A DNA stretch of 64,000 bases, taken from contig JAFSCK010000088.1 in the NCBI GenBank assembly GCA_017436785.1, positions 46,359 through 110,358 on the forward strand, written 5' to 3'. The notes beneath the pieces are model-generated. The model saw nothing but the letters and a program-made list of their open reading frames with translations, was not told the DNA's origin and did not search any database. Shown here piece by piece: positions 43,451 to 60,747 of the stretch. Origin of the DNA: Oscillospiraceae bacterium. Lineage in GTDB: Bacteria > Bacillota > Clostridia > Oscillospirales > Oscillospiraceae. The translations under genes were made by a program, and so were the position numbers. Every line of letters begins with the position of its first letter. Position 1 is the stretch's first letter.

Positions 43451-43486
43451 ATTATATTTTCTTTAGGCCATTCATTCACCGGTCAA
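43451..43486 (-). promoter_or_regulatory. Promoter of the TVP38-cls operon, regulon type
   Basis: On the minus strand TTTGACC, one base, GTGAAT (-35, plus 43474-43479), 17 bases, TATAAT (plus 43451-43456). The half-site position and spacing equal those of the four promoters at 51.1, 51.2, 58.3 and 60.7 kb. The left half-site is degenerate here, but a full copy of the operator lies 20 bases further up. Confidence 0.6.
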
Positions 43487-43504
43487 AGGACAATAAACGC
43501 CGCA

Positions 43505-43531
43505 TTTTGGGACACTTTTCATTTTTTGTCC
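43505..43531. promoter_or_regulatory. Regulon operator, copy 1
   Basis: TTTTGGGACACT (43505-43516), a spacer, then TTTTGTCC (43524-43531). The half-sites form an imperfect inverted repeat (TTGGGACA / TTGTCCAA). It lies between the TVP38 operon and the TetR gene and could serve both. Confidence 0.65.
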
Positions 43532-43543
43532 AAAAACCGGATG

Positions 43544-43572
43544 TTGAAATGTTCATAATTTCCCGATATAAT
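43544..43572 (+). promoter_or_regulatory. Promoter of the Mn-riboswitch leader
   Basis: TTGAAA (43544-43549) and a perfect TATAAT (43567-43572) are 17 bases apart. The predicted start falls at the 5' edge of the riboswitch. Confidence 0.75.
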
Positions 43573-43578
43573 AACCTT

Positions 43579-43668
43579 AAATAAGGGAGTAGTCGGCACA
43601 TTCGGTGCGGCGATGCCAACAAACTGGAGTATTCCTGGTATCACCTTAATTGACGAGACTTATCTGCC
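43579..43668 (+). promoter_or_regulatory. Probable yybP-ykoY (manganese) riboswitch
   Basis: It shows the L1 core ATAAGGGAGTAG and the closing strand GACGAGACTTAT, which pair through ATAAG / CTTAT as P1. Inside are a small GCAC/GTGC hairpin and a longer arm GGCGATGCC / GGTATCACC (43609-43617, 43637-43645; 8 of 9 pairs). This fits RF00080-type Mn2+ sensors. The usual targets are Mn exporters, but the next gene is a TetR regulator. Confidence 0.65.
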
Positions 43669-43684
43669 TTGGAACCGCTGATTC

Positions 43685-43713
43685 ATTCGTCTTCGGTGGT
43701 TGACGAATCTTTT
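43685..43713 (+). terminator. Possible expression-platform terminator
   Basis: The stem ATTCGTC / GACGAAT (43685-43691, 43702-43708) with a ten-base loop is followed by CTTTT. It lies 17 bases after the riboswitch and ahead of the TetR gene. Confidence 0.55.
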
Positions 43714-43727
43714 CCCACAACTGTGCA

Positions 43728-43773
43728 GAATATAAAACTTGAAATACATACAGTATTTCTGCGCTTTATATTC
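43728..43773. promoter_or_regulatory. Long interrupted dyad upstream of the TetR gene
   Basis: Nested inverted repeats: GAATATAAA (43728-43736) with TTTATATTC (43765-43773), and inside them GAAATAC (43741-43747) with GTATTTC (43753-43759). Nested dyads of this size are typical operator material for a dimeric repressor, or could form a long RNA hairpin. Confidence 0.5.
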
Positions 43774-43871
43774 TTTCATTTGTGAAAAAATCTTTCGCCA
43801 TCCGCACTTGCCGAATGGACCATCGTTTCCTGAGCGGGTGGGCCTCGCTTTTTTATTATGAGGAGAGAAAA

Positions 43872-44462
43872 ATGGCAGATTCCAATATTACCAAACTGGC
43901 CCTTTCCAATGCATTGAAGGAATTGCTGGAGGAACAGTCTTTTGAAAAAATCAGCGTATCCGATATCTGTGAACGCTGCCATATGAACCGCAAGAGTTTT
44001 TACTATCACTTCAAGGACAAATATGATCTGGTCAACTGGATTTTCGATACAGAGTTCGTGGAAGTGAATCAGGCAAATGCACGGTATATACAGCCTGGAG
44101 GCTATAGCTTTGATGAACGATGGAAAAATATCGAGATCATGTGCGACTACTTCTATGAAAACAGAACCTTTTATCGCCGTGTGCTTAAGGTGGATGGACA
44201 GAATTCCTTTGCCTCTCATTTCCGGGAGTTCGTCCGTCCGTTGTTCCGCCTGCGGGTAGAAAACTTGCTGGGAATGGAAGATGTTCCTGAGATGGTGTAT
44301 GATTTCGTTGTGGATGGCGTGATCTGCGCTATCGAACGCTGGCTTATGGATAAGAACTGTGTCAGCGCAGAAGAGTTCATGTACAATCTGAAGAAGATGA
44401 TCCAGATTCTGTATCTTGGCCTTGACAGAAGGGTTTCGGAAGATCCGAAATGGCTTGAATAA
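43872..44462 (+). CDS. TetR-family transcriptional regulator
   Basis: 196 residues from ATG 43872 with AGGAGAG upstream. The TetR helix-turn-helix is clear: ALKELLEEQSFEKISVSDICERCHMNRKSFYYHFKDKYDLVNWIF, residues 9-54. The C-terminal ligand domain (TFYRRVLKVDGQNSF, the long last helices) resembles the DhaS-type group. It is led by a probable Mn riboswitch and a long dyad. Its neighbourhood carries five or six related operator-promoter modules next to lipid genes. I infer that this protein controls them; it could equally control only itself and the TVP38 operon. A strong terminator follows. Confidence 0.88.
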   Translation: MADSNITKLALSNALKELLEEQSFEKISVSDICERCHMNRKSFYYHFKDKYDLVNWIFDTEFVEVNQANARYIQPGGYSFDERWKNIEIMCDYFYENRTFYRRVLKVDGQNSFASHFREFVRPLFRLRVENLLGMEDVPEMVYDFVVDGVICAIERWLMDKNCVSAEEFMYNLKKMIQILYLGLDRRVSEDPKWLE

Positions 44463-44473
44463 CATACAGACAT

Positions 44474-44512
44474 AAAATCAGCAGACTGGAAAATTCCGGT
44501 CTGCTGATTTTT
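44474..44512 (+). terminator. Terminator of the TetR gene
   Basis: AAAATCAGCAGAC / GTCTGCTGATTTTT forms a 13-base stem. Confidence 0.9.
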
Positions 44513-44528
44513 CTTATACTGATATTCA

Positions 44529-44677
44529 ATTAAAAGCTTTAAGCCGAAGGATTATAGCTTTTAATATGAAGATCATAATGAGACGGAATTCTGATATTTT
44601 CAATCCCGAAAATATCAGAATTGGTAACGCCTGCAAGGCGGTGCCTTTCAAATTGGAATTAAAGATTTCAATTTGAA
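44529..44677. repeat. Cluster of three hairpins
   Basis: Three perfect stems in a row: ATTAAAAGCT / AGCTTTTAAT (44529-44565), AATTCTGATATTTTC / GAAAATATCAGAATT (44587-44622) and TTCAAATTG / CAATTTGAA (44647-44677). They separate the TetR gene from the end of the activase gene and may protect RNA 3' ends or act as terminators. No gene is seen. Confidence 0.6.
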
Positions 44678-44684
44678 AACAGTA

Positions 44685-46025
44685 TTACATATTTTCCTTT
44701 GCCGATGAGAGCATCAGCTTGATGCGGTTAAGCTGATTGACTTCACTTGCGCCGGGGTCATAGTCCACAGCGGCAATGTTTGCCTGGGGGAATTCCGTTT
44801 TTAGCCGCTTGATGACACCCTTGCCCACCACATGGTTGGGAAGGCAGGCAAAGGGCTGGATGCAGACGATGTTGGGCACACCCATTTTGATCAGTTCAAT
44901 CATTTCGCCGGTCAGGAACCAGCCTTCGCCGTACTGATTGCCGATGGACAGGAAGGGTTTGGTCTGCTCTGCGATTTCTTCGATGGGCATCGGTGCATCA
45001 AAGCGTGTGCTGCCTGCAAGTGCTTCCAGCGCGGGTTTTCGAATCTGACGGATGGCCTTGACCAGTATTTTGGAAACCATGTCGCTGGATTTTGTTCCGC
45101 CAAGGAATTCGGCCAGATACTGATCGCTGTAGACGCAGTAATTCAGAAAATCCATCAGATCAGGAACCACGGCTTCCGCACCCTCTTTTTCCAGCAGCTC
45201 CACCAGATGATTATTGGCCAGGGGCATATATTTCACCAGAATCTCACCCACGATGCCTACACGGGGCTTTTTCAGATCCTCATGGATAGGAAGATTGTCA
45301 AAGTCTGAAACAATGTTACGGCAAATTTGCTTGTACCGTTTTACACTGTGTTTAGAAGTCAGTGCTTCGATACACTTTGTTCTCCAATGGCTGTGCAAGG
45401 CATCGGCGCTGCCGGGAAGCTTCTCATAAGGGCGCACCCGGTACAGACAGCGCATCAGAAGATCGCCATAGACTACAGCCTGCAGCATCTGTGTCATGAG
45501 CAGGGGCGAAAGCTTGAAGCCCTCGTTCTGCTCCATGCCGTTGGTATTCAGGGAAATTACCGGGATATGGGATAGGCCTACTTTTTCCAATGCACGGCGG
45601 ATAAAGGCCACATAGTTGCTGGCCCGGCAGCAGCCACCTGTCTGGGTCATAATGATCGCCAGTTTATCAGTATCGTATTTCCCAGACAGCACCGCCTGCA
45701 TGATCTGACCGACTACCGTGATGGAAGGGAAGCAGGCATCGTTGTTGACGAATTTCAGTCCCACATCCACAGCACGACGGTCATCATTGTCCAGCACTAC
45801 GATGTGATAGCCATGCTTTTGAAATACCGGCTCCAGCAGGTCAAAATGAATGGGACTCATCTGAGGTGCCAGAATGGTATAGCCCTCGTCATACATCTGC
45901 TGGGTGAATTCTGTTCGCACATAAGGGTTGTTGTCCGGTATGGAGAGAATCTGCTTTTCCCGGCGCATATCCATGGCGGCTAGCAAAGACCGTACACGAA
46001 TGCGGATAGCTCCTAGATTGTTCAC
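44685..46025 (-). CDS. Fragment 3 of the giant gene: HgdB-like dehydratase domain
   Basis: 446 codons open after the TAA at 46053-46055. The first possible start, GTG 46023-46025, has no ribosome binding site and lies inside the conserved stretch IDEVNNLGAIRIRVRSL, so independent translation is doubtful. Cysteine motifs of the 2-hydroxyacyl-CoA dehydratase/COG3581 family are kept: FVNNDACFPS near residue 95, QTGGCCRASNY near 130 and IQPFACLPNH near 395, which would hold a [4Fe-4S] cluster. The sequence shows no further damage, so the loss, if real, is recent. Confidence 0.6.
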   Translation of the reverse strand: MNNLGAIRIRVRSLLAAMDMRREKQILSIPDNNPYVRTEFTQQMYDEGYTILAPQMSPIHFDLLEPVFQKHGYHIVVLDNDDRRAVDVGLKFVNNDACFPSITVVGQIMQAVLSGKYDTDKLAIIMTQTGGCCRASNYVAFIRRALEKVGLSHIPVISLNTNGMEQNEGFKLSPLLMTQMLQAVVYGDLLMRCLYRVRPYEKLPGSADALHSHWRTKCIEALTSKHSVKRYKQICRNIVSDFDNLPIHEDLKKPRVGIVGEILVKYMPLANNHLVELLEKEGAEAVVPDLMDFLNYCVYSDQYLAEFLGGTKSSDMVSKILVKAIRQIRKPALEALAGSTRFDAPMPIEEIAEQTKPFLSIGNQYGEGWFLTGEMIELIKMGVPNIVCIQPFACLPNHVVGKGVIKRLKTEFPQANIAAVDYDPGASEVNQLNRIKLMLSSAKENM

Positions 46026-46052
46026 CTCATCGATTTTCAGAAGGGTGTAGAG

Positions 46053-48332
46053 TTAATTGTGCTTTTCCAGAATTTCGGCAACCTGGTCGGTGGTGACAGC
46101 ATCCAGACCGCAGCCGAAGGAATTCAGCTGGATCAGTTCCAGATCATCCCGCTGGGCAACAAACTGGGCTGCTTTGTACAGTCTCGAATGGTATACCCAC
46201 TGATCGACTACACGCAGAGGGGGAAGCGTATCCTCCACGGGCAGACAGTCTTCCGTAAAAACAGTCAGACCATAGGAAGCGATCAGCTCCGGAATGCCGT
46301 GGTTGATTTCCGGATCGATGTGGTAAGGCCGTCCAGCCAGAACGATGCCACGACCACCCCGGGTTTTCATGGACTCAAATACCCGGCGACCTTCCTCACG
46401 AATGACGGCTTTTGCATTTTGCTGCTCTTCCCATGCGGCATGAACAGCGGCGCGGACTTCCTTTTCAGGAATATTCCACTCCTCCGCAGCGGTTTTTACC
46501 AGCCGGTCTGCAGCAGTCTTTTCATTGGTAAAGGCAATAAAGGGGCGGATGTAGCGAACATCCCCATGGGTGATGGCCTCTACGTTGTTTTTCAGATTCT
46601 CTGCATAGGACACCACGATCGGGCAATTGTAGTGATTCTGGGCATTTTCCGTTTCCTGATGCTCGTAGAACACGCAGGGATGGAAAATGGTTTTGATACC
46701 TTGATCAACAAGCCACTGCACATGGCCGTGGGCCAGTTTTGCAGGATAACACTCGGATTCAGAGGGAATGGATTCCATACCCAACTCGTAGATTTTTCGG
46801 TCAGACCAGGGGGACAGTACCACCCGGAAGCCCAGTTCCTTGAAGAAGGTGGCCCAGAAGGGATAGTTTTCGTACATATTCAGCACTCTGGGGATACCAA
46901 TGGTTCCTCGGGGTGCGTTTTCTTCTGTCAAAGGCCGATAGGGATTAAAGAGCCGCTTGCGCTTGAAATCGACCATATTGCGGCCCTTTTCGCCCGTTAC
47001 TGTGTTGCCTGCGCCTTTTTCGCATCGGTTGCCACTGACATGCTTTCTGCCACCAAAATTGTTGACGGTCAGCATACAATGGTTACTGCAGCCGCCGCAG
47101 CGGACGGAGGTGGATTTGTAGGAAAGGCGAAGCATCGCGTCCAGGGAAAGCATGGTACTTTTCTCGTCGGTGTAATGGTTCTTAGCCACCAGAGCCGCAC
47201 CGAAGGCACCCATCAGGCCGGAAATGTCCGGGCAGGTGGCATCCACACCTGCAATCTTCTCAAAGGCTCGGAGCACTGCCTGGTTGTAGAAGGTACCGCC
47301 CTGAACAACAATGTGCCTGCCCAGATCCTCGGCATTTGCCAGCTTGATGACCTTATACAGGGCATTTTTGATGACGGAGTAGGCAAGACCGGCAGAAATA
47401 TCGGAAACGGATGCACCTTCCTTCTGGGCCTGCTTCACATTGGAATTCATGAACACGGTGCAGCGGGTGCCAAGATCAACAGGATCCTTGGCAAACAAGG
47501 CTTCCCGGGCAAAGCTTTCTGCTGTATAGCCCAGAGAAGTGGCGAAATTCTCAATGAAAGAGCCGCAGCCGGAGGAACAGGCTTCGTTCAGCATTATGGA
47601 ATCCACGGTGCCGTTCTTTAATTTGATGCACTTCATATCCTGACCACCGATATCCAAAACGCAGTCCACTTGGCTGTCAAAGAAGGAGGCGGCGGTGCAG
47701 TGGGCGATGGTCTCCACCACACCCTCGTCCAGATTAAAGGCGGATTTCAGCAGCGCTTCGCCGTAGCCCGTGGAGCAGCCACGGACGATCTTTGCACTTT
47801 CCGGCAGCACCTTTTTCAGTTCGCCAATGGCAAACTGGCTGGTCTGGATGGGATTGCCCTGGTTATTGGCATAGAACTTCCACAGCAGTTCACCTGCTTC
47901 ACCGATCAGAACCAGCTTTGTAGTGGTAGAGCCTGCGTCGATGCCGAGGAAACAATTGCCTGTGTATATAGAGACATCTGCTTTTCTCACCACTGCCTTA
48001 CTGTGACGGTTGCAGAAATCCTGATATTCCGCTTCATCCCGGAACAGAGGTTCCAGCCGGGACATTTCAAAGCTTGCCTGCACGCCTTTCTCTAACCGTT
48101 CAATCAATTGGGAAAGTTCTACGCTTTGTGCATCCTCTGCCTCTAATGCCGCACCCATAGCGGCAAACAGGTGGGAGTTCTCAGGATCAACGGTTGTTTC
48201 GTTGGTCAGTTTCAGAGTGCGGACAAAGGCAGACTTCAGCTCGGTAAGAAAATGGAGAGGACCACCTAAGAATGCTACGGTACCCCGGATGGGCTTGCCA
48301 CAAGCCAGGCCGGAAATGGTTTGGTTTACCAC
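46053..48332 (-). CDS. Fragment 2 of the giant gene: second activase ATPase plus DUF2229
   Basis: 759 codons open after the TAG. The ASKHA ATPase shows CFLGIDAGSTTTKLVLIGE near residue 127, CVLDIGGQDMKCIKL near 230, and the cluster cysteines NEACSSGCGSF and LGTRCTVFM, as in BcrA/HgdC activases that drive low-potential electrons with ATP. A cysteine-rich link (CGGCSNHCML, NRCEKGAGN) precedes DUF2229 (IGIPRVLNMYENYPFWATFF, SESECYPAKLAHGH). There is no good ribosome binding site at the GTG 48330-48332. It stops at TAA, two codons before which homologous sequence would simply continue. Confidence 0.6.
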   Translation of the reverse strand: MVNQTISGLACGKPIRGTVAFLGGPLHFLTELKSAFVRTLKLTNETTVDPENSHLFAAMGAALEAEDAQSVELSQLIERLEKGVQASFEMSRLEPLFRDEAEYQDFCNRHSKAVVRKADVSIYTGNCFLGIDAGSTTTKLVLIGEAGELLWKFYANNQGNPIQTSQFAIGELKKVLPESAKIVRGCSTGYGEALLKSAFNLDEGVVETIAHCTAASFFDSQVDCVLDIGGQDMKCIKLKNGTVDSIMLNEACSSGCGSFIENFATSLGYTAESFAREALFAKDPVDLGTRCTVFMNSNVKQAQKEGASVSDISAGLAYSVIKNALYKVIKLANAEDLGRHIVVQGGTFYNQAVLRAFEKIAGVDATCPDISGLMGAFGAALVAKNHYTDEKSTMLSLDAMLRLSYKSTSVRCGGCSNHCMLTVNNFGGRKHVSGNRCEKGAGNTVTGEKGRNMVDFKRKRLFNPYRPLTEENAPRGTIGIPRVLNMYENYPFWATFFKELGFRVVLSPWSDRKIYELGMESIPSESECYPAKLAHGHVQWLVDQGIKTIFHPCVFYEHQETENAQNHYNCPIVVSYAENLKNNVEAITHGDVRYIRPFIAFTNEKTAADRLVKTAAEEWNIPEKEVRAAVHAAWEEQQNAKAVIREEGRRVFESMKTRGGRGIVLAGRPYHIDPEINHGIPELIASYGLTVFTEDCLPVEDTLPPLRVVDQWVYHSRLYKAAQFVAQRDDLELIQLNSFGCGLDAVTTDQVAEILEKHN

Positions 48333-48335
48333 CGC

Positions 48336-48905
48336 CTAGAAGATGGAGGCGGCAAGATCGGCTTTTGTCGCACCCTCATTGATCAGGGGCTGAATATCCG
48401 TCTTGGCAAAGACACCGCAGCGGGCGGCGATGGGGTAGAGCTGCTGATAGCTTTTTGCAGCTTCGTTAAGTCCTTCTGCATCTGTCTGCAGCAGGGATGC
48501 CATCTGGTCAATGAAAGAACCGGTGCCACCGGCGCAGACACCGTTCATCCGTTCCTCAAGACCGCCCTTAAAATAAATGATATTGGCATCCTCGCCGCCG
48601 AGCTCAATGGCCACATCGGTCTGGGGCGCTGCTTCTTTCAGTGCCGTTGCCACTGCCACGACTTCCTGAACAAAGCCGATATCCAGGGCTTTTCCAAGAT
48701 TGATGGAGCCGGAGCCAGTGATTTTCAATTGCAGGCTGCATTCGCCCAGCTCCTTGCGAACAGATTTTAGCAAAGAATTCAAGGTTTCCTGGGTATGGGC
48801 ATGGTGCCGTCTGTAGTCACCAAAAAGGATTTCGTTATGTTCATTCAGAACCACCAGCTTTACGGTGGTGGAGCCGATATCAATACCGGCACGATATGCT
48901 TTCAT
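48336..48905 (-). CDS. Fragment 1 of the giant gene: first activase ATPase
   Basis: 189 codons from ATG 48903-48905 (AGAAAG upstream, weak) to TAG. It is an activase-type ATPase: AGIDIGSTTVKLVVLNE at the start, ITGSGSINL, VAIELGGEDANIIYF, the cluster motif NGVCAGGTGSFIDQMA, and AARCGVFAKTDIQPL near the end. The domain is cut off at SIF, where relatives continue QAVVNQT; a single C-to-T change of CAG would give the TAG seen. A -10 like TATGAT lies at about plus 48929 on the minus strand. Confidence 0.6.
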   Translation of the reverse strand: MKAYRAGIDIGSTTVKLVVLNEHNEILFGDYRRHHAHTQETLNSLLKSVRKELGECSLQLKITGSGSINLGKALDIGFVQEVVAVATALKEAAPQTDVAIELGGEDANIIYFKGGLEERMNGVCAGGTGSFIDQMASLLQTDAEGLNEAAKSYQQLYPIAARCGVFAKTDIQPLINEGATKADLAASIF

Positions 48906-48998
48906 AGATTCGCTTCTTTCTAAAAATATCATAATTTACCAACCAGAAATTTTACATCCTGCTTTTTGACATAGGAATGAATGGAATGTAAACAAAAT

Positions 48999-49025
48999 AA
49001 GGACGGAACGTAAAATTCCGCCCTT
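48999..49025 (-). terminator. Terminator after the patatin gene
   Basis: On the minus strand GGGCGGAAT / ATTCCGTCC-type pairing (GGGCGGAATTTTACGTTCCG) is followed by TTATTTTG, separating the patatin operon from the giant gene. Confidence 0.65.
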
Positions 49026-49168
49026 ATCGTATGGAAACCGGTACGATCGGGAAAAGAGGATGTCAAATGGGTGCAAAAGAGAAATGAGAGGAGATCGTAC
49101 TGCGGCTTCTTCTGTTTGGAACAGGTGATGACGGGCGGAGCATCACCTGCCCGCTGTATCAGCACACT

Positions 49169-50017
49169 TCAGCCCAAAAAGAAAGGGGTGATCTTTTCAG
49201 CGTCGGTGTAGCCTTTTCCATAAAGGAGCTTCATTTTATAAGAATCCCTGCAAAGGGTATGAACACCGCAGGTATCGTCCGGTGCAATGATCAGCAGTCT
49301 TCCTTCTGCAGCATATTGGCGGGCAAGTGTGACACCGTAGTTATACTTGTTGGCTCGGTTCATAAGTGCCTGTGCTGCTTCCGGAAATTCTTTGCGGATC
49401 CTACGTGCAAGCTTTTTATCTTTATCGGTCGTGCGGACCGTGTTCTCCGGCAATGTCAGGATCAGAACCACTTTATCGCAACCCAGCTGAAAGGCTTTTT
49501 CCACAGGGACTGGGTCACCCAAAGCACCGTCATAGCAGGGTGTTCCATCCAGCATAACGGGAGGGCAAATTCCGGGAATCGCCGAGGAAGCCATAAAAGG
49601 GGTGTAGCTGTCGTATATCAACTCTGATTTTGGAATATATCTGGGTTTACCGGTCAAGGCATCTGTGACAACGGTGAGAAATTCCATGGAATTCTCCATC
49701 AGCGTATCATAGTCGATGGGGTATTCTCCGTCTGAGTTTGTCAGCGTTCCATAGATGTATTGCAGATTGATATAGGACCGGTCACGCAGGTAATTACGCA
49801 TTCCTGCATATTCCTTCCGCAAACCGTATTCTGTATAGAAGGTCCGGTTTCTCATGGGCTGTCTGGCGCAATAGGACGCGATATTGGCACTGCCAGCACT
49901 GACTCCGATGCCGAGATCAAACCAGATCCCCGTGTGCATACAGTAATCCAGCACGCCTGCGGCATAAACGCCTCGGTAGCCGCCGCCTACATCCACCACA
50001 CCAATTTTGGGGTTCAT
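49169..50017 (-). CDS. Patatin-like phospholipase
   Basis: 282 residues. The glycine-rich oxyanion motif GVVDVGGGYRGVYAAGVLD, the nucleophile elbow GVSAGSAN near residue 40 and the Asp of the dyad in YDGALGDPVPV near 165 make a complete patatin Ser-Asp site. There is no signal peptide, so it acts in the cytosol or on the inner membrane leaflet. It releases fatty acids from phospholipids. Its ATG lies next to the stop of the cluster-less radical SAM-like gene (50019), so the two share the 51.1 kb promoter. DegV fatty-acid binders nearby would handle its products. Confidence 0.9.
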   Translation of the reverse strand: MNPKIGVVDVGGGYRGVYAAGVLDYCMHTGIWFDLGIGVSAGSANIASYCARQPMRNRTFYTEYGLRKEYAGMRNYLRDRSYINLQYIYGTLTNSDGEYPIDYDTLMENSMEFLTVVTDALTGKPRYIPKSELIYDSYTPFMASSAIPGICPPVMLDGTPCYDGALGDPVPVEKAFQLGCDKVVLILTLPENTVRTTDKDKKLARRIRKEFPEAAQALMNRANKYNYGVTLARQYAAEGRLLIIAPDDTCGVHTLCRDSYKMKLLYGKGYTDAEKITPFFLG

Positions 50018-50018
50018 A

Positions 50019-51029
50019 TCAGTAATTCGTTCCTTTCTGCTTGGGGAATGCCTGCTTCAGAACAGTGGGCAGATCATTGACAAAGATGTTCAGACCGTAT
50101 GTCCGGTCGACTCCCTGATCGGTATTCAGCTGACCGTATTCATCGAAGCCAACCCAATGAGGAGTTACAGAGATTACGCTGTCTACTAATAGCATATCTC
50201 CATACATTTCCCAGGGAATTGTTTTGAATTCCTGCTCCAGACGGGCTCTGGTGATCCAGCGATAGACCCGATCCCGCAGTGCTTTCTGGCAGGGAAACTG
50301 GGGCTTCAATACAGAGAACGCAGGATGGAGCTGCTCCATTTCATGCATCAGCTCGCCGCTTTCAATGGAAGGAACATCTTTCTCGGTGTAGGTATAGTAA
50401 AGTCCATAGAGGATTCCGGATACCCGAAGCATATCGCAGGCCACATCCGCATCCTTATCAAAGGGAAGCATGATGGCAATATTTCGGATTTCATCGGCAC
50501 AATCCAGAACACTCCAGCTGATTTCATTACAGCCGCAGAAAATCACAAACGCGCTGTCCGGATGCTTTTGTGCCAGTGTCAGGCAATCATAAATACCGTG
50601 ATTGGAAAACAGATGCCAAGTATGGATTCCTAATTTCTCACCCTGGTCAATGGCCTGATGGTGCTGCTCGAACAGTTTTCCCTCGTTGATGGACAGAGAA
50701 ACAGTCCATGGGATGCTGTGCTGCGTCATACTGCGAATCTTTTTGGATCCTTCGTAAAGGCCGTTATATCCTACATTCATACCAAAGGTCAGCAAGGTTT
50801 CTTCGCTTACTTGGGTGAAGGTATCCTTGACCAGTGCGTAATAGGCACTGCTTTCGTTGGTAAGCAGACTTTGTGCGCCGGAATAGAATTCCTGCTGAAA
50901 ACGGCTGTCAGCAAATTTCAGAGCGATGTCCACCAGATTTCGGACTGTCCGATCCGGATCCGCTTTCAAATCGTGAATTGCTTTCTTAACAATGGTGTTT
51001 ACCATGACCCGATTGACACTGTTTTCCAT
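50019..51029 (-). CDS. Radical SAM-like protein lacking the cluster motif
   Basis: 336 residues from ATG 51027-51029; GCAGGAGG lies upstream. It looks like a relative of the divergent radical SAM enzyme at 51249: LVDIALKF vs LMDLVDKF, IPWTVSLSIN vs IPWAILLDP, QGEKLGIHTWHLFS vs QGKELGTYMYIYTG, and KHPDSAFVIF vs MHPDCMFLAF, in the same order and spacing. The C-x3-C-x2-C segment of the enzyme (residues 118-125) is replaced by EGKLFEQHH. It thus cannot bind a radical-SAM cluster in the usual way and may be a structural or regulatory partner. It is driven by regulon promoter copy 2 and followed by the patatin gene. No described family was recognised. Confidence 0.7.
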   Translation of the reverse strand: MENSVNRVMVNTIVKKAIHDLKADPDRTVRNLVDIALKFADSRFQQEFYSGAQSLLTNESSAYYALVKDTFTQVSEETLLTFGMNVGYNGLYEGSKKIRSMTQHSIPWTVSLSINEGKLFEQHHQAIDQGEKLGIHTWHLFSNHGIYDCLTLAQKHPDSAFVIFCGCNEISWSVLDCADEIRNIAIMLPFDKDADVACDMLRVSGILYGLYYTYTEKDVPSIESGELMHEMEQLHPAFSVLKPQFPCQKALRDRVYRWITRARLEQEFKTIPWEMYGDMLLVDSVISVTPHWVGFDEYGQLNTDQGVDRTYGLNIFVNDLPTVLKQAFPKQKGTNY

Positions 51030-51063
51030 TGCATCATCCTCCTGCCGTTTAGCATTTGGATTC

Positions 51064-51120
51064 AGTATAAGGAAATCTTTCCTATCTCTCAACGGACAAA
51101 AAGTTGGGAGTGTCCCAAAA
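51064..51120 (-). promoter_or_regulatory. Regulon promoter-operator, copy 2
   Basis: Minus strand: TTTTGGGACACT (plus 51109-51120), 11 bases, GTCC ending TTTTTGTCC (plus 51094-51099 for TTGTCC), one base, TTGAGA (-35, plus 51087-51092), 17 bases, TATACT (-10, plus 51064-51069). It drives the cluster-less radical SAM-like gene and the patatin gene. Confidence 0.75.
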
Positions 51121-51147
51121 GGTAACCGGTTTGCGGGATTGTCGAAA

Positions 51148-51204
51148 TTTGGGACACTGGTGATGTGTTTGTCCAATGACAAAGGGAAGTTACTGTCTTA
51201 TATT
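51148..51204 (+). promoter_or_regulatory. Regulon promoter-operator, copy 3
   Basis: TTTGGGACACT (51148-51158), 12 bases, GTCC ending TTTGTCC (51168-51174), one base, ATGACA (-35, 51176-51181), 17 bases, TATATT (-10, 51199-51204). It drives the radical SAM and degV genes and lies back to back with copy 2. Confidence 0.75.
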
Positions 51205-51248
51205 GGGCTCAAATCGGTCTTGAGACCAAAAGAAAGGCGGAAATAAAA

Positions 51249-52604
51249 ATGAGCTCCCTTAAAGAAACCATGCAGACCTTCGCTGTAAATCAGGCACTGA
51301 AGTATATTGAAGGTGATCCCAACGAGAATCTGCCCAAGTTGATGGACTTGGTGGACAAGTTCTCTCCCGACGGCTGGTACGAATCCCAGCGCACTGCAAT
51401 TCGCCATGCCATTGAGGATAAGAACAACTGGTATCAGCTGGTTATGCGCTTGTACGAACTGGATCCCGGTGTTCGCAAGGCATTCTTCCAGAATTTCCTG
51501 TTCAATGCCAGCTTTAAGGGCAGCGCGACCCAGCATGAAAACCGAGAGAAGTATGGCTGCAACATTCCCTGGGCCATTCTGCTGGATCCTACCTCTGCCT
51601 GCAACCTGCACTGCACCGGCTGCTGGGCAGCGGAATACGGCAACCGTCTGAACCTTTCCCTGGAAACCATTGATTCCATCATCCGCCAGGGCAAGGAACT
51701 GGGTACCTATATGTACATCTACACCGGCGGTGAGCCTACCGTCCGGAAAGCAGACCTGTTCAAGATCTGTGAGATGCATCCTGACTGCATGTTCCTGGCC
51801 TTCACCAACGGTACCCTCATCGATGAGGAATTCTGTAAGGAAATGCTTCGGGTGAAGAACTTTGTGCCCGCCATCTCTCTGGAGGGTTTCGAGGATGCCA
51901 ACGATTCCCGCCGTGGCAAGGGAATTTATGATAAGGTTGCAAACGCCATGCGGCTGCTGAAGGAGCATGGCCTGGCTTTCGGTATCTCCACCTGCTATAC
52001 CTCTGTCAACTACAAGGATATCACCAGCGAGGAATTCTTCGATTACATGATCGATTCTGGCGCTCTGTTTGCCTGGTTCTTCCACTATATGCCCGTTGGC
52101 AACGGTGCAGCCACCCAGCTGCTGCCGACTCCTGAGCAGCGTACCCATATTTACAATAAGATCCGGGAATACCGTTCCACCAAAGCGCTGTTTACCATCG
52201 ATTTCCAGAACGATGCAGAGTATGTAGGTGGCTGCATCGCCGGTGGCCGGAATTACCTGCATATTAACGCCAAGGGTGATGTGGAGCCCTGCGTGTTCAT
52301 CCACTATTCAAACTGCAATATCCACGATACCAGCCTGCTGGATGCTCTGAGAAGCCCCCTGTTCATGGCTTACCATGACAACCAGCCCTTCAACGACAAT
52401 ATGCTCCGTCCCTGTCCCATGCTGGAAAATCCTGAAGCTTTGCGTTCTATGGTCAAGGCTACCGGTGCGGTAAATACCGACTACCAGAGCCCCGAATCCG
52501 TTGACCACCTGTGTGATAAAACCACTCCTTATGCCGAAAACTGGAAGGGTACAGCAGACAAGCTCTGGAGCACCACCTGCGCCCAGTGCGGAAAGTGCAA
52601 ATAA
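51249..52604 (+). CDS. Radical SAM/SPASM enzyme with N-terminal helical extension
   Basis: 451 residues. An N-terminal helical part of about 100 residues (FAVNQALKYIEGDPNENLPKL) precedes the radical SAM core with SACNLHCTGCW near residue 118, IYTGGEPTVRKADL (GEP-type motif) and AISLEGFED. A cysteine-rich C-terminal region holds GGCIAGGRNYLHINAKGDV, PCVFIHYSNC, RPCPML and a last CAQCGKCK, as in SPASM domains with auxiliary clusters. It is expected to do radical chemistry on an unknown substrate. It is divergent from a relative without the cluster. degV follows within 5 bases and metK about 1 kb further on. Both divergent promoters carry the regulon operator. Confidence 0.9.
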   Translation: MSSLKETMQTFAVNQALKYIEGDPNENLPKLMDLVDKFSPDGWYESQRTAIRHAIEDKNNWYQLVMRLYELDPGVRKAFFQNFLFNASFKGSATQHENREKYGCNIPWAILLDPTSACNLHCTGCWAAEYGNRLNLSLETIDSIIRQGKELGTYMYIYTGGEPTVRKADLFKICEMHPDCMFLAFTNGTLIDEEFCKEMLRVKNFVPAISLEGFEDANDSRRGKGIYDKVANAMRLLKEHGLAFGISTCYTSVNYKDITSEEFFDYMIDSGALFAWFFHYMPVGNGAATQLLPTPEQRTHIYNKIREYRSTKALFTIDFQNDAEYVGGCIAGGRNYLHINAKGDVEPCVFIHYSNCNIHDTSLLDALRSPLFMAYHDNQPFNDNMLRPCPMLENPEALRSMVKATGAVNTDYQSPESVDHLCDKTTPYAENWKGTADKLWSTTCAQCGKCK

Positions 52605-52608
52605 TAGA

Positions 52609-52932
52609 ATGGCTTTTCAGATTTTTGCAGATGCCACTGCTGATTTGACAGGCAGCTTTGCGGAAGAATTATCCGCCGTTAAGGTAATTCCCATGCAGGT
52701 GGAGATCTGCGGCAGAAATTATACCTATGGTCCCGGTGGAGACTTGAGCATCTCTGAATTCTATAAAATGCAGAGGGAGGGCAATTTTGCATCCACCTCT
52801 CAAATCAATCCCGCGATCTATGCAGATTATTTTCGTCATGTGTTTCTGGAGGGGAAGGATGTGCTGTATTTATCCTTTTCTTCCGGAATGTCTGCGACCT
52901 TTCAGTCAGCCCAAATTGCTGCTCAGGAATAG
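52609..52932 (+). CDS. DegV N-terminal fragment
   Basis: 107 codons up to the in-frame TAG. It holds the N-terminal lobe of DegV with the fatty-acid carboxylate region (ADATADL) and STSQINP. It would be unstable alone. It is listed separately because a stop-aware annotation would report it. Confidence 0.5.
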   Translation: MAFQIFADATADLTGSFAEELSAVKVIPMQVEICGRNYTYGPGGDLSISEFYKMQREGNFASTSQINPAIYADYFRHVFLEGKDVLYLSFSSGMSATFQSAQIAAQE

Positions 52933-52956
52933 CAGGAGCAATTCCCGGAGCGAAAA

Positions 52957-53478
52957 GTGATTTGCGTGGATACCCTTGGTGCAACCTTAAGCGAGATGCT
53001 GCTGCTTCGGGAAGCTATTGACATGCAAAGAAAAGGCACAGATATAGAAACGGTTGCGGCATGGATCGAAGAGAACAGGCTGAAGGTATGTGTATGGTTT
53101 GTGGTGGATACCTTTGACCATCTGCATCACGGTGGCAGAGTATCTGCCGCAACAGCTGCTGTAGGTACCATGCTGAATATCAAACCCATGCTGCATATTG
53201 ACGCCAATGGCAAGCTGGAAAACACATCCAAGCCCCGGGGTAGAAAAAGGGCTATGTTGACTCTGCTTTCCAAAATGGAACAGGGCTGGAACTCAGACTT
53301 TTCCAAAACCGTGACCATCGTTCATGCTGACGATTCTCAAGGAGCGGAGGAACTGAAAAGACTGGTTGCCCAAAAGTTTCCGAAAGCAGAAATTGAGATA
53401 GGGGATCTCGGCCCGGTGATCGGTGCTCATACCGGTCCTGGATTGCTGGCTCTGATCTACTGGGGAAATAATCGATAA
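52957..53478 (+). CDS. DegV C-terminal fragment
   Basis: Open frame after the TAG, with first start at 52957 (ATT/GTG-type region before CVDTLGATLSEM) and no ribosome binding site. It contains VDTFDHLHHGGRVS and the C-terminal IGAHTGPGLLALIYWG. It belongs to the same frame as the N-terminal part. Confidence 0.45.
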   Translation: MICVDTLGATLSEMLLLREAIDMQRKGTDIETVAAWIEENRLKVCVWFVVDTFDHLHHGGRVSAATAAVGTMLNIKPMLHIDANGKLENTSKPRGRKRAMLTLLSKMEQGWNSDFSKTVTIVHADDSQGAEELKRLVAQKFPKAEIEIGDLGPVIGAHTGPGLLALIYWGNNR

Positions 53479-53514
53479 TACTATTTCTTAAAAAATGATT
53501 TGAAATTATTTTTA

Positions 53515-53631
53515 GTGTACCATTGCATGGTACACCGCTTTCAGCGGTAAGAAATGTATTGACTTCGCTTTTAGCGGCTTCTCCGCTGGCTGCAGGAGCT
53601 GCAGCCAGATAAAACGCTTTCATAGCGTTTT
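53515..53631. repeat. Cluster of five hairpins upstream of metK
   Basis: Successive stems: GTGTACCAT / ATGGTACAC (53515-53535), ACCGCT / AGCGGT, AGCGG / CCGCT, GGCTGCAG / CTGCAGCC (53588-53606) and AAAACGCT / AGCGTTTT (53611-53631). No SAM riboswitch signature was found. The cluster may be a processed or attenuating leader for metK. Confidence 0.6.
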
Positions 53632-53659
53632 ATAAAAACTAGTATGAGGAACTTAAATT

Positions 53660-54817: not shown

Positions 54818-54823
54818 GGACAA

Positions 54824-54856
54824 GCACCGTATTCATTCCTGAGTACGGTGCTTTTT
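54824..54856 (+). terminator. Terminator of metK
   Basis: The stem AGCACCGTA / TACGGTGCT is followed by TTTTT. Confidence 0.9.
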
Positions 54857-54896
54857 GAAAAATTCATGTTTCCGAAATCCATTGGTATATGGATTA

Positions 54897-54905
54897 TGCT
54901 ATAAT
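54897..54905 (+). promoter_or_regulatory. Extended -10 promoter of the Lon-like gene
   Basis: TGC directly upstream of TATAAT (54900-54905). The -35 region is poor, as often seen with extended -10 elements. No CtsR- or CIRCE-type repeat is visible. Confidence 0.55.
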
Positions 54906-54957
54906 ATAATTACAAAGAAACCACTCATTGGAATACCGATGCAAAGGAGGTCTTGCT

Positions 54958-57354: not shown

Positions 57355-57424
57355 AGATATACCCCTATAAATTTCATATTTTTTGTGTTATAATAAAATT
57401 ATGAAGAGAGAAGGGGAAAATGAG

Positions 57425-58204
57425 ATGAAATTCTATGAGTTTGGCGATCCTGGTAATCCTGCAATTATGTGCCTGCCCGGCAACTTCATGACCCATCGCC
57501 AGTTTGAGAACATCGTTCCCATGCTGGAGCAGGAATATCATGTCATTACCGTATCCTTTGATGGCTATGATGAAACAGGGAAAACGACTTACACCACTGG
57601 TGAAGAGCAGGCCAGGAAACTTGCTGCTTTTATCCGGGAAAGACTTGATAGTAGAATTGATTTGGTCTATGCGGAATCACTTGGAAGCATTCCTGCGGTA
57701 TTCCTGACTCGGTTCGCCGACTTGCAGATTGGTGGAATCATCCTCAGTGGTGCGGAATACATGAATTACGGTATCTTCAACGGTCTGGCAATCAACCTCT
57801 TTGCACCTATGACCCATAAGATGATGACAAAAATACTCAGCAGCGGCGATGTGAAATTCCCGGCATTTTTGAAAATCAAAATGGGGATCACCGATGATGT
57901 GTTCCAGCCCATGCTGAAGCAAGCCTGTCAAAACCTGACGCTGGAAACAACAAAAGCCACCTTTTGGGAAGCGGTAAGGCTGTATCCGGAGTATATGAGC
58001 AAATGGGAGCCCAATCCTAATATCCGCATTTCCTGCTGGTACGGTGAAAAAGAAATGAACATGAAAAAGGCAATCCAGCATTTGAAGCGGGCATTTCCGA
58101 ATCTGGAGGTAAATCCCTTCAAGGGGCTGGGGCATGGTGAGATCACGGCACATCCCCAAAAGTTGGTTGCAGAACTGAAGTCTTTTCTCCAAAAGAATCA
58201 TTGA
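57425..58204 (+). CDS. Alpha/beta hydrolase
   Basis: 259 residues from ATG 57425, with AAGGGGA upstream and TATAAT at 57389-57394. The oxyanion region is IMCLPGNFMTHRQF near residue 17, the nucleophile elbow is VYAESLGSIPAVF near 84 (Ser in E-S-L-G-S), and the last His is in FKGLGHGEIT near 240. The acid residue is not certain. Members are esterases, lipases or thioesterases. In this lipid-rich stretch an acyl-ester substrate is plausible. It is monocistronic, ending at a perfect terminator. Confidence 0.85.
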   Translation: MKFYEFGDPGNPAIMCLPGNFMTHRQFENIVPMLEQEYHVITVSFDGYDETGKTTYTTGEEQARKLAAFIRERLDSRIDLVYAESLGSIPAVFLTRFADLQIGGIILSGAEYMNYGIFNGLAINLFAPMTHKMMTKILSSGDVKFPAFLKIKMGITDDVFQPMLKQACQNLTLETTKATFWEAVRLYPEYMSKWEPNPNIRISCWYGEKEMNMKKAIQHLKRAFPNLEVNPFKGLGHGEITAHPQKLVAELKSFLQKNH

Positions 58205-58210
58205 ATCCAG

Positions 58211-58240
58211 AGCATCGGAGCGAAAACTCCGATGCTTTTC
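58211..58240 (+). terminator. Terminator of the alpha/beta hydrolase gene
   Basis: The stem AGCATCGGAG / CTCCGATGCT is followed by TTTTCC, directly upstream of regulon operator copy 4. Confidence 0.9.
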
Positions 58241-58241
58241 C

Positions 58242-58298
58242 TTTTGGGACACTCAAACTGTTTTGCCCAATGACTTTGGAAGATGGCTGAAGTACAAT
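58242..58298 (+). promoter_or_regulatory. Regulon promoter-operator, copy 4
   Basis: TTTTGGGACACT (58242-58253), 11 bases, then the TTTTGCCC half-site (58261-58268), one base, ATGACT (-35, 58270-58275), 17 bases, TACAAT (-10, 58293-58298). It drives the Ltp-domain protein gene. Confidence 0.75.
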
Positions 58299-58342
58299 TT
58301 AAGCTGTACAAATATTGTTTGGCCCATGGCGGGAGGAAGCAT

Positions 58343-59377
58343 ATGAAAGAGAAACTTAAAAAATGCAAGACCTGTGATCAGGAAATCGCTAAGAAGGCTG
58401 CGGTTTGTCCCCATTGTGGTGCAAAGAATAAAAAGCCCTTTTTTAAGCGGTGGTGGTTTTGGCTGCCCGTATGTTTGATACTGATTGCTATCATTCTGTG
58501 TGTCATTTTTGGAATCAATCAAGATAGTATTAATTCACATCTTTTGCAAAATGAAAATGGCAGCGCAATCTCGGAAACAACGGATGTTACTGAAACCCAG
58601 GAGGAAACAGAGACAACGACAATAGAACCTAGCGAAACAGTAGAAGTGACAGAAACAGAAGAAACTGTTCCTGCAGAGGCGGAAGAGCCCGTTTCCACAG
58701 AAACTGTAACGGAAGAATCTGTCCCCGAGGAAACAATTCCCGAAGAAACTGTTTTGGAAGAGACAGTACCGACTGAAACAGAAGCGGAACCATCTGAACA
58801 GCCTGCCACACTGGGTGAGAACAATGCACTGAGTTCCGCCCGGCTGCATCTTTCCAAAGGGATTCTTTCTTATGGTGCCTTGGCAGAACTTCTTGAGCAG
58901 GAGAAATTTACTGAGGAAGAAATTGCGTTTGCGCTCCGGAACTGCGGCGTGGATTGGAATGAAAATGCTGTTAAGGCAGTAAGAACTGCTCTCAGCTTCC
59001 GTCCGTTTTCTCTCGTTGGATTGCAGCGCTATCTGATTGCTGAAGGATATACTCCGGAGCAGGCAGAATACGGTGCGGAGCACTGCTGTGCTGACTGGAA
59101 GCTGCAGGCTGAGAAGGCTGCTGTTCTGTATCTGGATATCCTGGCCTTTTCAGAGCATTCTCTGAAGGAACAGTTGGAATATGACGGATTCACCTCTGAA
59201 GAAGCAATGCATGCCGTAAGCAACTGTGGTGCGGACTGGCAGGAACAAGCTGTCAAGGCAGCAGCGTTGTATTTGGAGAATAAGCCGCTGTCCCGGCAAG
59301 GACTACTGGATCAACTCCTAAGCGACGGATTTACAGAAGAACAGGCGGCTTTCGGCGTGAGGAAAAGTGGATATTGA
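58343..59377 (+). CDS. Zinc-ribbon, membrane-anchored Ltp-domain protein
   Basis: 344 residues from ATG 58343 with GGGAGG. A zinc ribbon (CKTCDQEIAKKAAVCPHC, residues 8-25) precedes one membrane helix (RWWFWLPVCLILIAIILCVIF). A Thr/Glu-rich stalk of about 100 residues (repeats of ETVPEET type) leads to three and a half Ltp repeats, each with Y/L-L-x-x-G-F/Y-T-x-E-x-A and C-x-A/V-D-W (for example ALRNCGVDWNENAVKAVR). Ltp modules occur in surface proteins and in phage superinfection-exclusion lipoproteins. The stalk and repeats should face outward, the zinc ribbon inward. It belongs to the regulon through copy 4. Confidence 0.85.
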   Translation: MKEKLKKCKTCDQEIAKKAAVCPHCGAKNKKPFFKRWWFWLPVCLILIAIILCVIFGINQDSINSHLLQNENGSAISETTDVTETQEETETTTIEPSETVEVTETEETVPAEAEEPVSTETVTEESVPEETIPEETVLEETVPTETEAEPSEQPATLGENNALSSARLHLSKGILSYGALAELLEQEKFTEEEIAFALRNCGVDWNENAVKAVRTALSFRPFSLVGLQRYLIAEGYTPEQAEYGAEHCCADWKLQAEKAAVLYLDILAFSEHSLKEQLEYDGFTSEEAMHAVSNCGADWQEQAVKAAALYLENKPLSRQGLLDQLLSDGFTEEQAAFGVRKSGY

Positions 59378-59381
59378 ATTT

Positions 59382-59415
59382 CAGAAATGGCCGTCGAGAT
59401 TTAAGCGGCCATTTC
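59382..59415 (+). terminator. Hairpin after the Ltp gene
   Basis: AGAAATGGCCG / CGGCCATTTCT forms an 11-base stem without a long T run. It may terminate partly and let BrkB be co-expressed. Confidence 0.55.
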
Positions 59416-59439
59416 TCTGTGTAAGGACTGTCTATAAGC

Positions 59440-60321
59440 ATGCTGAAAGAAATGAAACGAAATAAAAAACATAGAGTTGTGATGCCGGTGTTTCAACTGG
59501 TGATTCAAAACTTTTTTGAACACAATGTGGGAAAGAACGCAGCGGCTCTGGCGTATTATCTGCTATTTGCGCTGTTTCCAATGTTGATTTTCCTGAGCAA
59601 CCTTCTGGGTTTGCTGGATCTGAATATCTCTGAGATCATTCAGATACTACAGCAGTTCTTGCCTAAGGATGTTGTGGGGATCGTGGAGAGCTATCTGGAT
59701 CATGTATCCCACACGTCAAGCCCGTCAATGCTTTGGTTTGCACTGGTGTTTACAGTATGGTTTCCCATGCGGGCGGCCAAAGGCTTGATGGATGATGTAA
59801 GGCTTGCCTACCATCTGGGCAAACCGGCTCACCCGGTATCCTATACCATTCGCCAGTTGGTTTACACAGTGGTGCTATTGATCGTTGTGGGATTGACGCT
59901 GCTTTTTTCTACATTGGGAAAGCAGGTCCTGGGATATCTGAACCACCTGATTCCGGAGAAGACTCTGAGAATATCGGATTATTTACTGACGATTTGGCAG
60001 TATCTTCGATTCATTCCTGTTGGCGCACTGATGTTTGCGGCATTGGGAACTTTGTATGCGGCCTCTCTTGACAAGCGGCAGCCATGGGAAGAAATGCTTC
60101 CGGGAATTACGGCTGCACTGCTCTCTTGGATCGTTGTCAGTATTGGGTTTTCTGTTTATGTGGAGAATTTTGCGAATTATTCTGTGATCTACGGCACCCT
60201 GGGTGCGGTGATCGTACTATTGATGTGGCTGTACATGACGGCGGTTATTCTGATCCTTGGTGCAGAGCTGAATGCGGCGTTGCGGACAGTACGACAAACG
60301 AATCGTGAGGAAAGAACATGA
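59440..60321 (+). CDS. YihY/BrkB-family membrane protein
   Basis: 293 residues, six predicted helices. The family pattern is clear: FFEHNVGKNAAALAYYLLFALFPMLIF near residue 25, MLWFALVFTVWFPMRAAKGLMDDV near 105, and the C-terminal FANYSVIYGTLGAVIVLLMWLYMTAVILILGAELNAAL. The molecular function of YihY/BrkB proteins is unsettled; it is not RNase BN. The stop overlaps the ATG of the DUF1232 gene (ATGA, 60318-60321), so the two are coupled. It has the same direction as the Ltp gene and probably belongs to the regulon operon. Confidence 0.9.
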   Translation: MLKEMKRNKKHRVVMPVFQLVIQNFFEHNVGKNAAALAYYLLFALFPMLIFLSNLLGLLDLNISEIIQILQQFLPKDVVGIVESYLDHVSHTSSPSMLWFALVFTVWFPMRAAKGLMDDVRLAYHLGKPAHPVSYTIRQLVYTVVLLIVVGLTLLFSTLGKQVLGYLNHLIPEKTLRISDYLLTIWQYLRFIPVGALMFAALGTLYAASLDKRQPWEEMLPGITAALLSWIVVSIGFSVYVENFANYSVIYGTLGAVIVLLMWLYMTAVILILGAELNAALRTVRQTNREERT

Positions 60322-60685
60322 ATCTGAAGAAGTGGGGAAAAAACTGAAAAGGGACATTCCGGCGATTTTCCTGTCTTTGAAGGATAAAGATACTCCGTTG
60401 CCTGCGAAAATTGCGGGATGCATCACGGTTGCCTATGCGTTGTCGCCTGTGGATCTGATCCCGGATTTTATTCCCGTGCTGGGATACCTGGACGATGTGA
60501 TCCTATTGCCGGTGTTGGCAGCTATCACAATCAAGCTGCTGCCCGCACAGATCCTGGAAAGAAACAGGCACCGGGCCCAGGGACTTTGGGAAAATGGAAA
60601 ACCGAAAAAATGGTACTACGGGCTGCCTGTGGTATTATTTTGGGGATTCGTTGTTCTATGTGTGGTTCGGAAAATACTTCGCTGA
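60318..60685 (+). CDS. DUF1232 (YkvA-type) membrane protein with apparent frameshift
   Basis: ATG 60318 overlaps the BrkB stop and follows AGGAAAG, but its frame ends after nine codons (MNLKKWGKN, TGA). The DUF1232 body (AYALSPVDLIPDFIPVLGYLDDV, then ILERNRHRAQGLW and a C-terminal helix) lies in the neighbouring frame, which can be opened only from poor starts such as ATG 60272. Adding one A to the A6 run at 60338-60343 joins them as MNLKKWGKKLKRDIPAIF, a natural N-terminus. So this is either a one-base deletion or a sequencing error, or a slippery site. About 122 codons when joined. Function unknown; two helices. Confidence 0.75.
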
Positions 60686-60691
60686 ACGCTC

Positions 60692-60747
60692 TTTGGGACA
60701 CTGAAACAGTTTTGACCGGCGACTTTTTACTAGAAACCGAATATAAT
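60692..60747 (+). promoter_or_regulatory. Regulon promoter-operator, copy 5
   Basis: TTTGGGACACT (60692-60702), 11 bases, then the TTTTGACC half-site (60710-60717), one base, GCGACT (-35, 60719-60724), 17 bases, TATAAT (-10, 60742-60747). It drives the intact degV gene. Confidence 0.75.

Follow-up and report, generated by a model that had tools for sequence, protein, structure and literature searches.

The question raised by this locus is what the short palindromic sites recurring before several of its promoters do, and which protein reads them. The window analyzed here is the whole stretch of 64,000 nucleotides from Oscillospiraceae bacterium (assembly GCA_017436785.1, contig JAFSCK010000088.1, positions 46,359–110,358). 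The sites have the form GGACA-N12-TGTCC, as derived from the window and from its relatives, and stand before genes for lipid and envelope proteins and before a gene for a TetR regulator (tetR, 43872; coordinates of the features are collected in Table 1). Probably this TetR, which belongs to the DhaS branch, binds the sites upstream of the −35 boxes and activates its own gene together with lipid/envelope operons. This would be a new regulon under a known kind of regulator.

A repeated operator had been noticed at five places by an earlier sequence-only reading, and it is found at all five (43506, 51094, 51151, 58246 and 60695). The TTTGGGACA half-site alone is not above chance in the window (21 occurrences with at most one mismatch, 19.3 expected), therefore the paired signal was tested with information from outside the window. 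A matrix was trained on 40 loci of relatives with the window excluded (the same 40 are among the 100 loci scanned later), about 64,000 positions of the window were scored, and 200 Markov-simulated windows served as the null. The three best positions, 43510, 51094 and 58247, all exceed 20.8 bits, the highest maximum of the simulated windows, and the site at 51152 equals them when a spacer of 13 is allowed, in agreement with the claim that the sites form one operator family. Below these three the window shows no excess (20 positions of at least 5 bits, 16.8 expected). In the genome of origin, a search allowing two mismatches gave five matches. Four of them fall on the three operators of this contig (43506 on both strands, 51094 and 58243) and the fifth is degenerate and lies on another contig; the search is blind to the N13 site at 51151 and to the site at 60692.

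The site at 60695 is a weak candidate, suggested by the way it is spaced from its promoter and by its resemblance to the site at 58243: from 60692 on, 23 of 26 letters are identical in the two, those of the spacer being counted as well. Such likeness might mean that the sites are copies of one ancestral promoter whose letters survive from a recent duplication, with no regulation involved. In the relatives, however, the half-sites are kept and the 12-base spacers vary, and we consider this explanation very improbable indeed.

The loci of relatives were collected by a protein search with the radical SAM (S-adenosylmethionine; rSAM) protein of the window, from which the best 80 loci of Clostridia, out of 539 relatives found, were taken; gene starts in these loci are approximate. 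The record names include Fournierella, Pseudoflavonifractor, Negativibacillus, Anaerostipes, Roseburia and many metagenome-assembled genomes. Comparison with orthologous upstream regions, as proposed by the earlier reading, speaks for the operator: a GGACA-N12-TGTCC pair with at most one mismatch lies within 300 base pairs (bp) upstream of the rSAM gene in 43 of the 80 loci, while other spacers from 5 to 19 give at most 7. Scanning of 100 loci with the matrix gave 118 sites at spacer 12, between 0 and 4 at spacers 9, 10, 11 and 13, and 2 in the reversed sequence. Paired sites at the rSAM loci are mostly 58 bp (19 times), 29 bp (14) or 57 bp (6) apart. The intergenic region between the rSAM gene and its divergent neighbor X336 has, in 40 anchored relatives, the consensus CAA-N-GGACA-N12-TGTCCCAAAA-N-GTAACA-N12-TGTC-N2-AATTT-N-GGAC-N12/13-TGTCC-N-ATGAC...TATAAT. 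It forms an array of three 29-bp units between two divergent promoters, with units 2 and 3 less strict. The window repeats this layout at 51094, 51122 and 51151, and the 58 bp from unit 1 to unit 3 is a distance frequent in the relatives too. Both sites read earlier in this region are present; the degenerate middle unit (51122–51145), which completes the 29-bp tandem array, had been missed.

The position of the operators relative to the promoters bears on the action of the bound regulator. At the X336, rSAM, Ltp and second degV promoters the half-site lies 1 bp before the −35 box, which is separated by 17 bp from the −10 box, just as had been claimed. The operator proposed near 43505 stands as well, at 43506 and first in rank; the good plus-strand promoter of tetR beside it had been left unlisted. 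The TVP38-cls promoter proposed at 43451–43486 did not hold, with no fitting −10 box at 17 bp from the TTGACC beside the half-site and the TATAAT there pairing only with a poor GTGAAT. A survey of 147 operators from 103 loci yielded 125 distinct promoters, either side of an operator being counted. The −35 box starts 1 bp after the half-site in 68 of them, 11–12 bp after it in 5 and 22–23 bp after it in 27; many of the 22–23 bp cases precede tetR or mntP (e.g. L012, L013, L019, L026 and L040). The distance of 1 bp was found at 7 of 405 random control places. In-phase distances (0–2, 11–13, 22–23 and 32–34 bp, classes set after the data were seen) occur at 103 of the 125 promoters vs 97 of the 405 random places. 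Since the half-site is mostly 1, 12 or 22–23 bp before the −35 box, that is, on one face of the helix, its placing suits an activator. A search of the own genome for the right half joined to the −35 box (TGTCCMATGAC, one mismatch) was uninformative, with 102 matches vs 83 in the control.

The same TetR and operator may also work by repression, the polymerase being blocked at operator-adjoining promoters and released on ligand binding. Most TetR proteins repress, and an operator touching the −35 box could occlude the polymerase. However, the sites lie upstream of the −35 box, in the phase described above, and not across the core promoter or the start; besides, many of the −35 boxes found at 1 bp are weak ones (ATGACT). 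According to PMC12647141, DhaS and FasR, both compared below, are activators. Repression is, in our estimate, rather unlikely, and activation is preferred.

The protein encoded at 43872 had been named earlier as a possible regulator, and it is the best candidate to bind this operator family. It matches PF00440 (40.6 bits) and PF14278 (59.5 bits), both above gathering, which places it in the TetR family with a TetR_C_8 domain. Within its own genome it scores 123 bits against the DhaS model and the next TetR 50; its nearest solved relatives by sequence are 4mk6 (DhaS-like, Listeria) and then 2iu5 (DhaS). Orthologues adjoin the cluster in the relatives with 42–55% identity (27 aligned), and C-x-MNR-x-SFYYHF, which we take to be the recognition helix, is invariant in all 27. 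Among rSAM loci with enough flank (n = 44), a TetR of at least 130 bits accompanies 24 of the 26 with the operator vs 9 of the 18 without it (p = 0.003). When 295 genomes from the order are compared, the strict pattern is present in 9 of 24 that have a TetR of at least 170 bits vs 6 of 271 that do not (p = 1e-7), a cut-off picked after the scores were seen; all 33 genomes at E 1e-30 give 10/33 vs 5/262. With the own genome removed the link persists (8/23, p = 9e-7), and of 12 genomes with the reversed pattern, used as a control, 2 have such a TetR. A tetR homologue stands downstream of an operator in 18 of the 100 loci, with L042 and L185, apparently one record, counted twice here as well as in the per-gene operator and promoter counts. 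Strong sites are present in two regions of congeners that have a TetR orthologue, L221 before tetR (25.3 bits) and L222 at X336/rSAM (24.0 and 21.7 bits).

It could be argued that a different regulator encoded elsewhere binds the motif and that tetR is merely another target. Two of the 26 operator-bearing rSAM loci show no TetR in the stretch covered, and within the order 26 of 30 TetR loci are without a near site. On the other hand, the pattern and the TetR co-occur, the operator is placed as for autoregulation at tetR, and the same half-site and spacing are seen at DhaS loci linked to dhaK. The exact GGACA-N12-TGTCC lies between dhaK and dhaQ-tetR in Pediococcus (L130) and between dhaS and dhaK-dhaL in another genome (G595, L210), and a one-mismatch site is found at the dhaK-linked loci of two near-identical lactobacillus plasmids (L127 and L128). 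The motif is thus not without precedent, contrary to the sequence-only reading. In the literature covered (titles and abstract openings, with subscription papers mostly outside) no account of a GGACA-N12-TGTCC operator in Clostridia was found. We hold a different regulator to be quite unlikely and proceed with the TetR at 43872.

Several observations weigh against regulation by this TetR. Its score with the DhaS model TIGR02366, 123.9 bits, is below the curated cut-off of 129, and for this reason it is called DhaS-like and not DhaS. In L223, from another congener that has a TetR orthologue, 12 kilobases hold no site scoring more than 6.5 bits. Among 30 TetR loci from the order, that of the window counted, 4 have the pair within 600 bp upstream, and an operator lies within 350 bp of 24 out of 72 TetR homologues. 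Five of eight plasmid DhaS-like loci are without a site of at most one mismatch beside the regulator, one of these (L131) having two degenerate units. The site is present at one of seven DhaS loci over the cut-off, which is the sole one with dhaK among the six fetched wider. Homologues of DegV (0/32, queried with the second DegV) and Cls (0/5) have no operator within 350 bp upstream, unlike the second degV of the window with its weak site at 60695. The genome-wide scan that had been proposed gives, in the own genome, the operators of this contig and one degenerate match elsewhere; across the order, the strict pattern occurs at 18 places in 15 genomes vs 14 places in 12 genomes for the reversed control, which is not above chance, and with two mismatches 61 genomes of the genus give 94 places, mostly scattered, vs 68 in the reversed control (summed). 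Finally, the sampled relatives are mutually related and not independent samples; L021, L026, L035, L040 and L043, for instance, are close relatives of one another. Because few TetR or DhaS loci have a near operator and the whole-genome enrichment is slight, the regulon appears to be present in a set of lineages and not across the whole TetR branch.

The following mechanism may be proposed. The TetR would bind palindromes that immediately precede the −35 boxes of sigma-70 promoters and, sitting on one side of the helix, help RNA polymerase to start transcription. The signal that it answers to may be a lipid or an acyl compound. Sites abutting the −35 box would act in a class-II-like manner, and those one or two turns further up, as at tetR, in a class-I-like manner. 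The regulator would act on its own gene, together with TVP38-cls on the opposite strand; the divergent X336-patatin and rSAM-degV operons would be controlled through the three-unit array with its 29-bp period; and the Ltp-BrkB operon, perhaps also the second degV, would be under the same control.

The membrane-lipid theme ascribed to these targets holds in part. Among the relatives, X336 has an operator at most 350 bp upstream in 40 of 53 cases, rSAM in 43 of 87, patatin in 4 of 11, AI-2E transporter genes in 2 of 9 and TVP38 in 4 of 8 (one record counted twice). There the operator also precedes genes for MntP, P-type cation ATPase, a cation-efflux protein and proteins with a weak glycosyl-hydrolase-79 match. 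No operator was found within the same distance of SAM-synthetase (0/5), BrkB (0/1) or plasmalogen-synthase-like (0/1) homologues. In one relative (L007, 5537–5620) a NiCo riboswitch is situated between the operator and the cation-efflux gene. In 35 of 80 loci X336 and rSAM are divergently arranged, and DegV follows rSAM in 34 of 79, therefore DegV may share the rSAM promoter. X336 has no Pfam or NCBIfam match and appears as a pseudo-radical-SAM protein paired divergently with the rSAM protein that keeps the motif.

PlsA/PlsR plasmalogen synthases consist of BadF ATPase, DUF2229 and HGD-D domains in one gene or a pair. The plasmalogen-synthase-like gene, which is presumably co-transcribed with X336, has the HGD-D match below cut-off, and its reading frame is interrupted twice, by TAG at 48336–48338 and TAA at 46053–46055; decay, recoding and an assembly or damage error are all possible. 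The stop near 52930 in degV is the third in-frame stop within 7 kilobases of the window. The domain make-up of PlsA/PlsR is given in part in PMC13274423.

Table 1. Positions of the operators, promoters, genes and other elements of the window (−35 and −10 boxes as read on the strand of the promoter).
Feature	Positions	Strand	Details
Operator upstream of tetR and of TVP38-cls	43506–43531		TTTGGGACA-N12-TGTCC; matrix position 43510, rank 1, 27.2 bits
Operator unit 1, divergent X336/rSAM array	51094–51115		GGACA-N12-TGTCC, serves minus strand; rank 2, 25.9 bits; kept in relatives
Operator unit 2, degenerate	51122–51145		GTAACC-N12-TGTCGA; 29 bp after unit 1; GTAACA half kept in relatives
Operator unit 3	51151–51174		GGGACA-N13-TGTCC; matrix position 51152, 25.9 bits at spacer 13
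Operator before Ltp-BrkB operon	58243–58268 (core 58246–58268)		TTTGGGACA-N12-TGCCC; matrix position 58247, rank 3, 23.5 bits
Weak operator before second degV	60692–60717 (core 60695–60717)		TTTGGGACA-N12-TGACC; 8.1 bits, rank 6, not significant alone
tetR promoter	43544–43572	+	TTGAAA 43544–43549, N17, TATAAT 43567–43572; 12 bp after half-site
X336 promoter	51064–51092	−	−35 TTGAGA 51087–51092, −10 TATACT 51064–51069
rSAM promoter	51176–51204	+	ATGACA-N17-TATATT
Ltp promoter	58270–58298	+	ATGACT-N17-TACAAT; Ltp start then at about 58343
Second degV promoter	60719–60747	+	GCGACT-N17-TATAAT
TetR regulator, DhaS-like, proposed regulator	43872–44462	+	TetR_N and TetR_C_8
AI-2E-family transporter	40035–41201	−	PF01594
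Cardiolipin synthase (cls)	41214–42704	−	TIGR04265, 341.7 bits, cut-off 290
TVP38/VTT membrane protein	42758–43417	−	PF09335
Plasmalogen-synthase-like gene	44685–48905	−	BadF ATPase domains (PF01869) and DUF2229 (PF09989)
Patatin-like phospholipase, downstream of X336	49169–50017	−	PF01734
X336, divergent rSAM paralogue without Cx3Cx2C cluster motif	50019–51029	−	hhalign to rSAM, probability 99.5; AlphaFold predicted local distance difference test (pLDDT) 86.8
Radical SAM/SPASM protein	51249–52604	+	451 amino acids; PF04055, PF13186
DegV (FakB-like) gene	52612–53478	+	5' end approximate; split by in-frame stop near 52930
Ltp-repeat surface protein	58343–59377	+	PF07553
BrkB/YihY membrane protein	59440–60321	+	PF03631
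Second DegV (FakB-like) protein	60780–61649	+	TIGR00762
Structured leader, Mn2+-riboswitch-like	43581–43700	+	3' end runs into palindromic repeat
Palindromic repeat, like a miniature inverted-repeat transposable element	43671–43831		at least 12 matches per genome in several congeners

Between its promoter and its start, tetR has a structured leader, into whose 3' end the palindromic repeat has apparently been inserted, so that the repeat now separates leader and gene. The leader pattern gave 17 matches in 104 loci; one further sequence was picked out by inspection, which made an alignment of 18. The structure has 31 pairs, of which 14 have changed on both strands of the stem, more than in any shuffled or slid control, although it was predicted from the same alignment in which its covariation was tested. 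With a model built from the leader, RNAs were found in 44 of 299 genomes from the phylum. The gathering threshold of the Mn2+ riboswitch yybP-ykoY (RF00080, 45 bits) is not reached by the window leader (6.5 bits) or by that of L013 (24.4 bits), and at gathering the sole Rfam matches in the window are tRNA and the glycine riboswitch. Of 18 leader-model loci tested, 10 match RF00080 and 2 match SSRC10 (E ≤ 0.1), with one above gathering for each (L239, RF00080, 47.4 bits; L226, SSRC10, 67.8 bits); SSRC10 may itself, at a guess, be a streptococcal Mn riboswitch. MntP or a P-type ATPase adjoins 11 of the 29 leader-model loci other than the window's own. A conserved leader that bears a weak resemblance to yybP-ykoY, and seems akin to it and to SSRC10, stands before tetR or mntP.

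Comparison with known systems extends these observations. In Lactococcus lactis, DhaS is the TetR activator of the dha operon, and DhaQ with dihydroxyacetone acts as its co-activator. We take the operator of this DhaS to be GGACACAT-N6-ATTTGTCC, which is compatible with the window site and was not found in the literature search. DhaS is the best-matching subfamily model and the second-best solved relative of the window TetR, and the GGACA/TGTCC half-sites with the 12-base spacer are common to the dhaK-linked loci and the window. In contrast to DhaS, the window TetR scores below the DhaS cut-off and is associated with lipid/envelope genes and a tandem 29-bp array; no dha genes (dhaK, dhaL, dhaM or dhaQ) are present among the 20 window proteins scanned. 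Another DhaS-like protein (107.6 bits) is the Listeria innocua TetR beside oleate hydratase (L131), where AGACA-N12-TGTCT and AGACA-N12-TGCCC stand 29 bp apart before the hydratase gene; this system differs from the window in its single neighboring target gene and weaker half-sites. The operator predicted here is exact for a TetR branch that is little characterized outside dha operons, and it would tie this branch to membrane lipids in gut Clostridia, with the rSAM/pseudo-rSAM pair, the DegV proteins and the plasmalogen-type locus linked to one switch.

The nearest functional parallel, as judged from the published description, would be FasR (SPV_0647) of Streptococcus pneumoniae. According to PMC12647141, a table of which names DhaS as an activator, FasR has a DhaS-like predicted fold, is a positive regulator of fabM and possibly of fakB3, and is encoded beside and opposite the DegV gene fakB3; its binding site was not found by the authors. 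PMC11302323 describes a strain with lowered susceptibility to a lipopeptide that has, among several other mutations, an insertion between fakB3 and the adjoining TetR gene. By these descriptions FasR may be likened to the window TetR in its DhaS-like predicted fold, its link to fatty-acid genes and its DegV neighbor. By analogy one might imagine a lipid-sensing switch of the DhaS-DhaQ type, in which the DegV of the rSAM operon (FakB-type, fatty-acid-binding) would carry an acyl signal to the TetR as a co-activator, the Mn2+-riboswitch leader would set the amount of TetR, and the same code would also serve as the binding site sought for FasR in streptococci; this picture as a whole is speculative and, in our opinion, unlikely. 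For FasR, published without a binding site (PMC12647141), GGACA-N12-TGTCC is a direct prediction.

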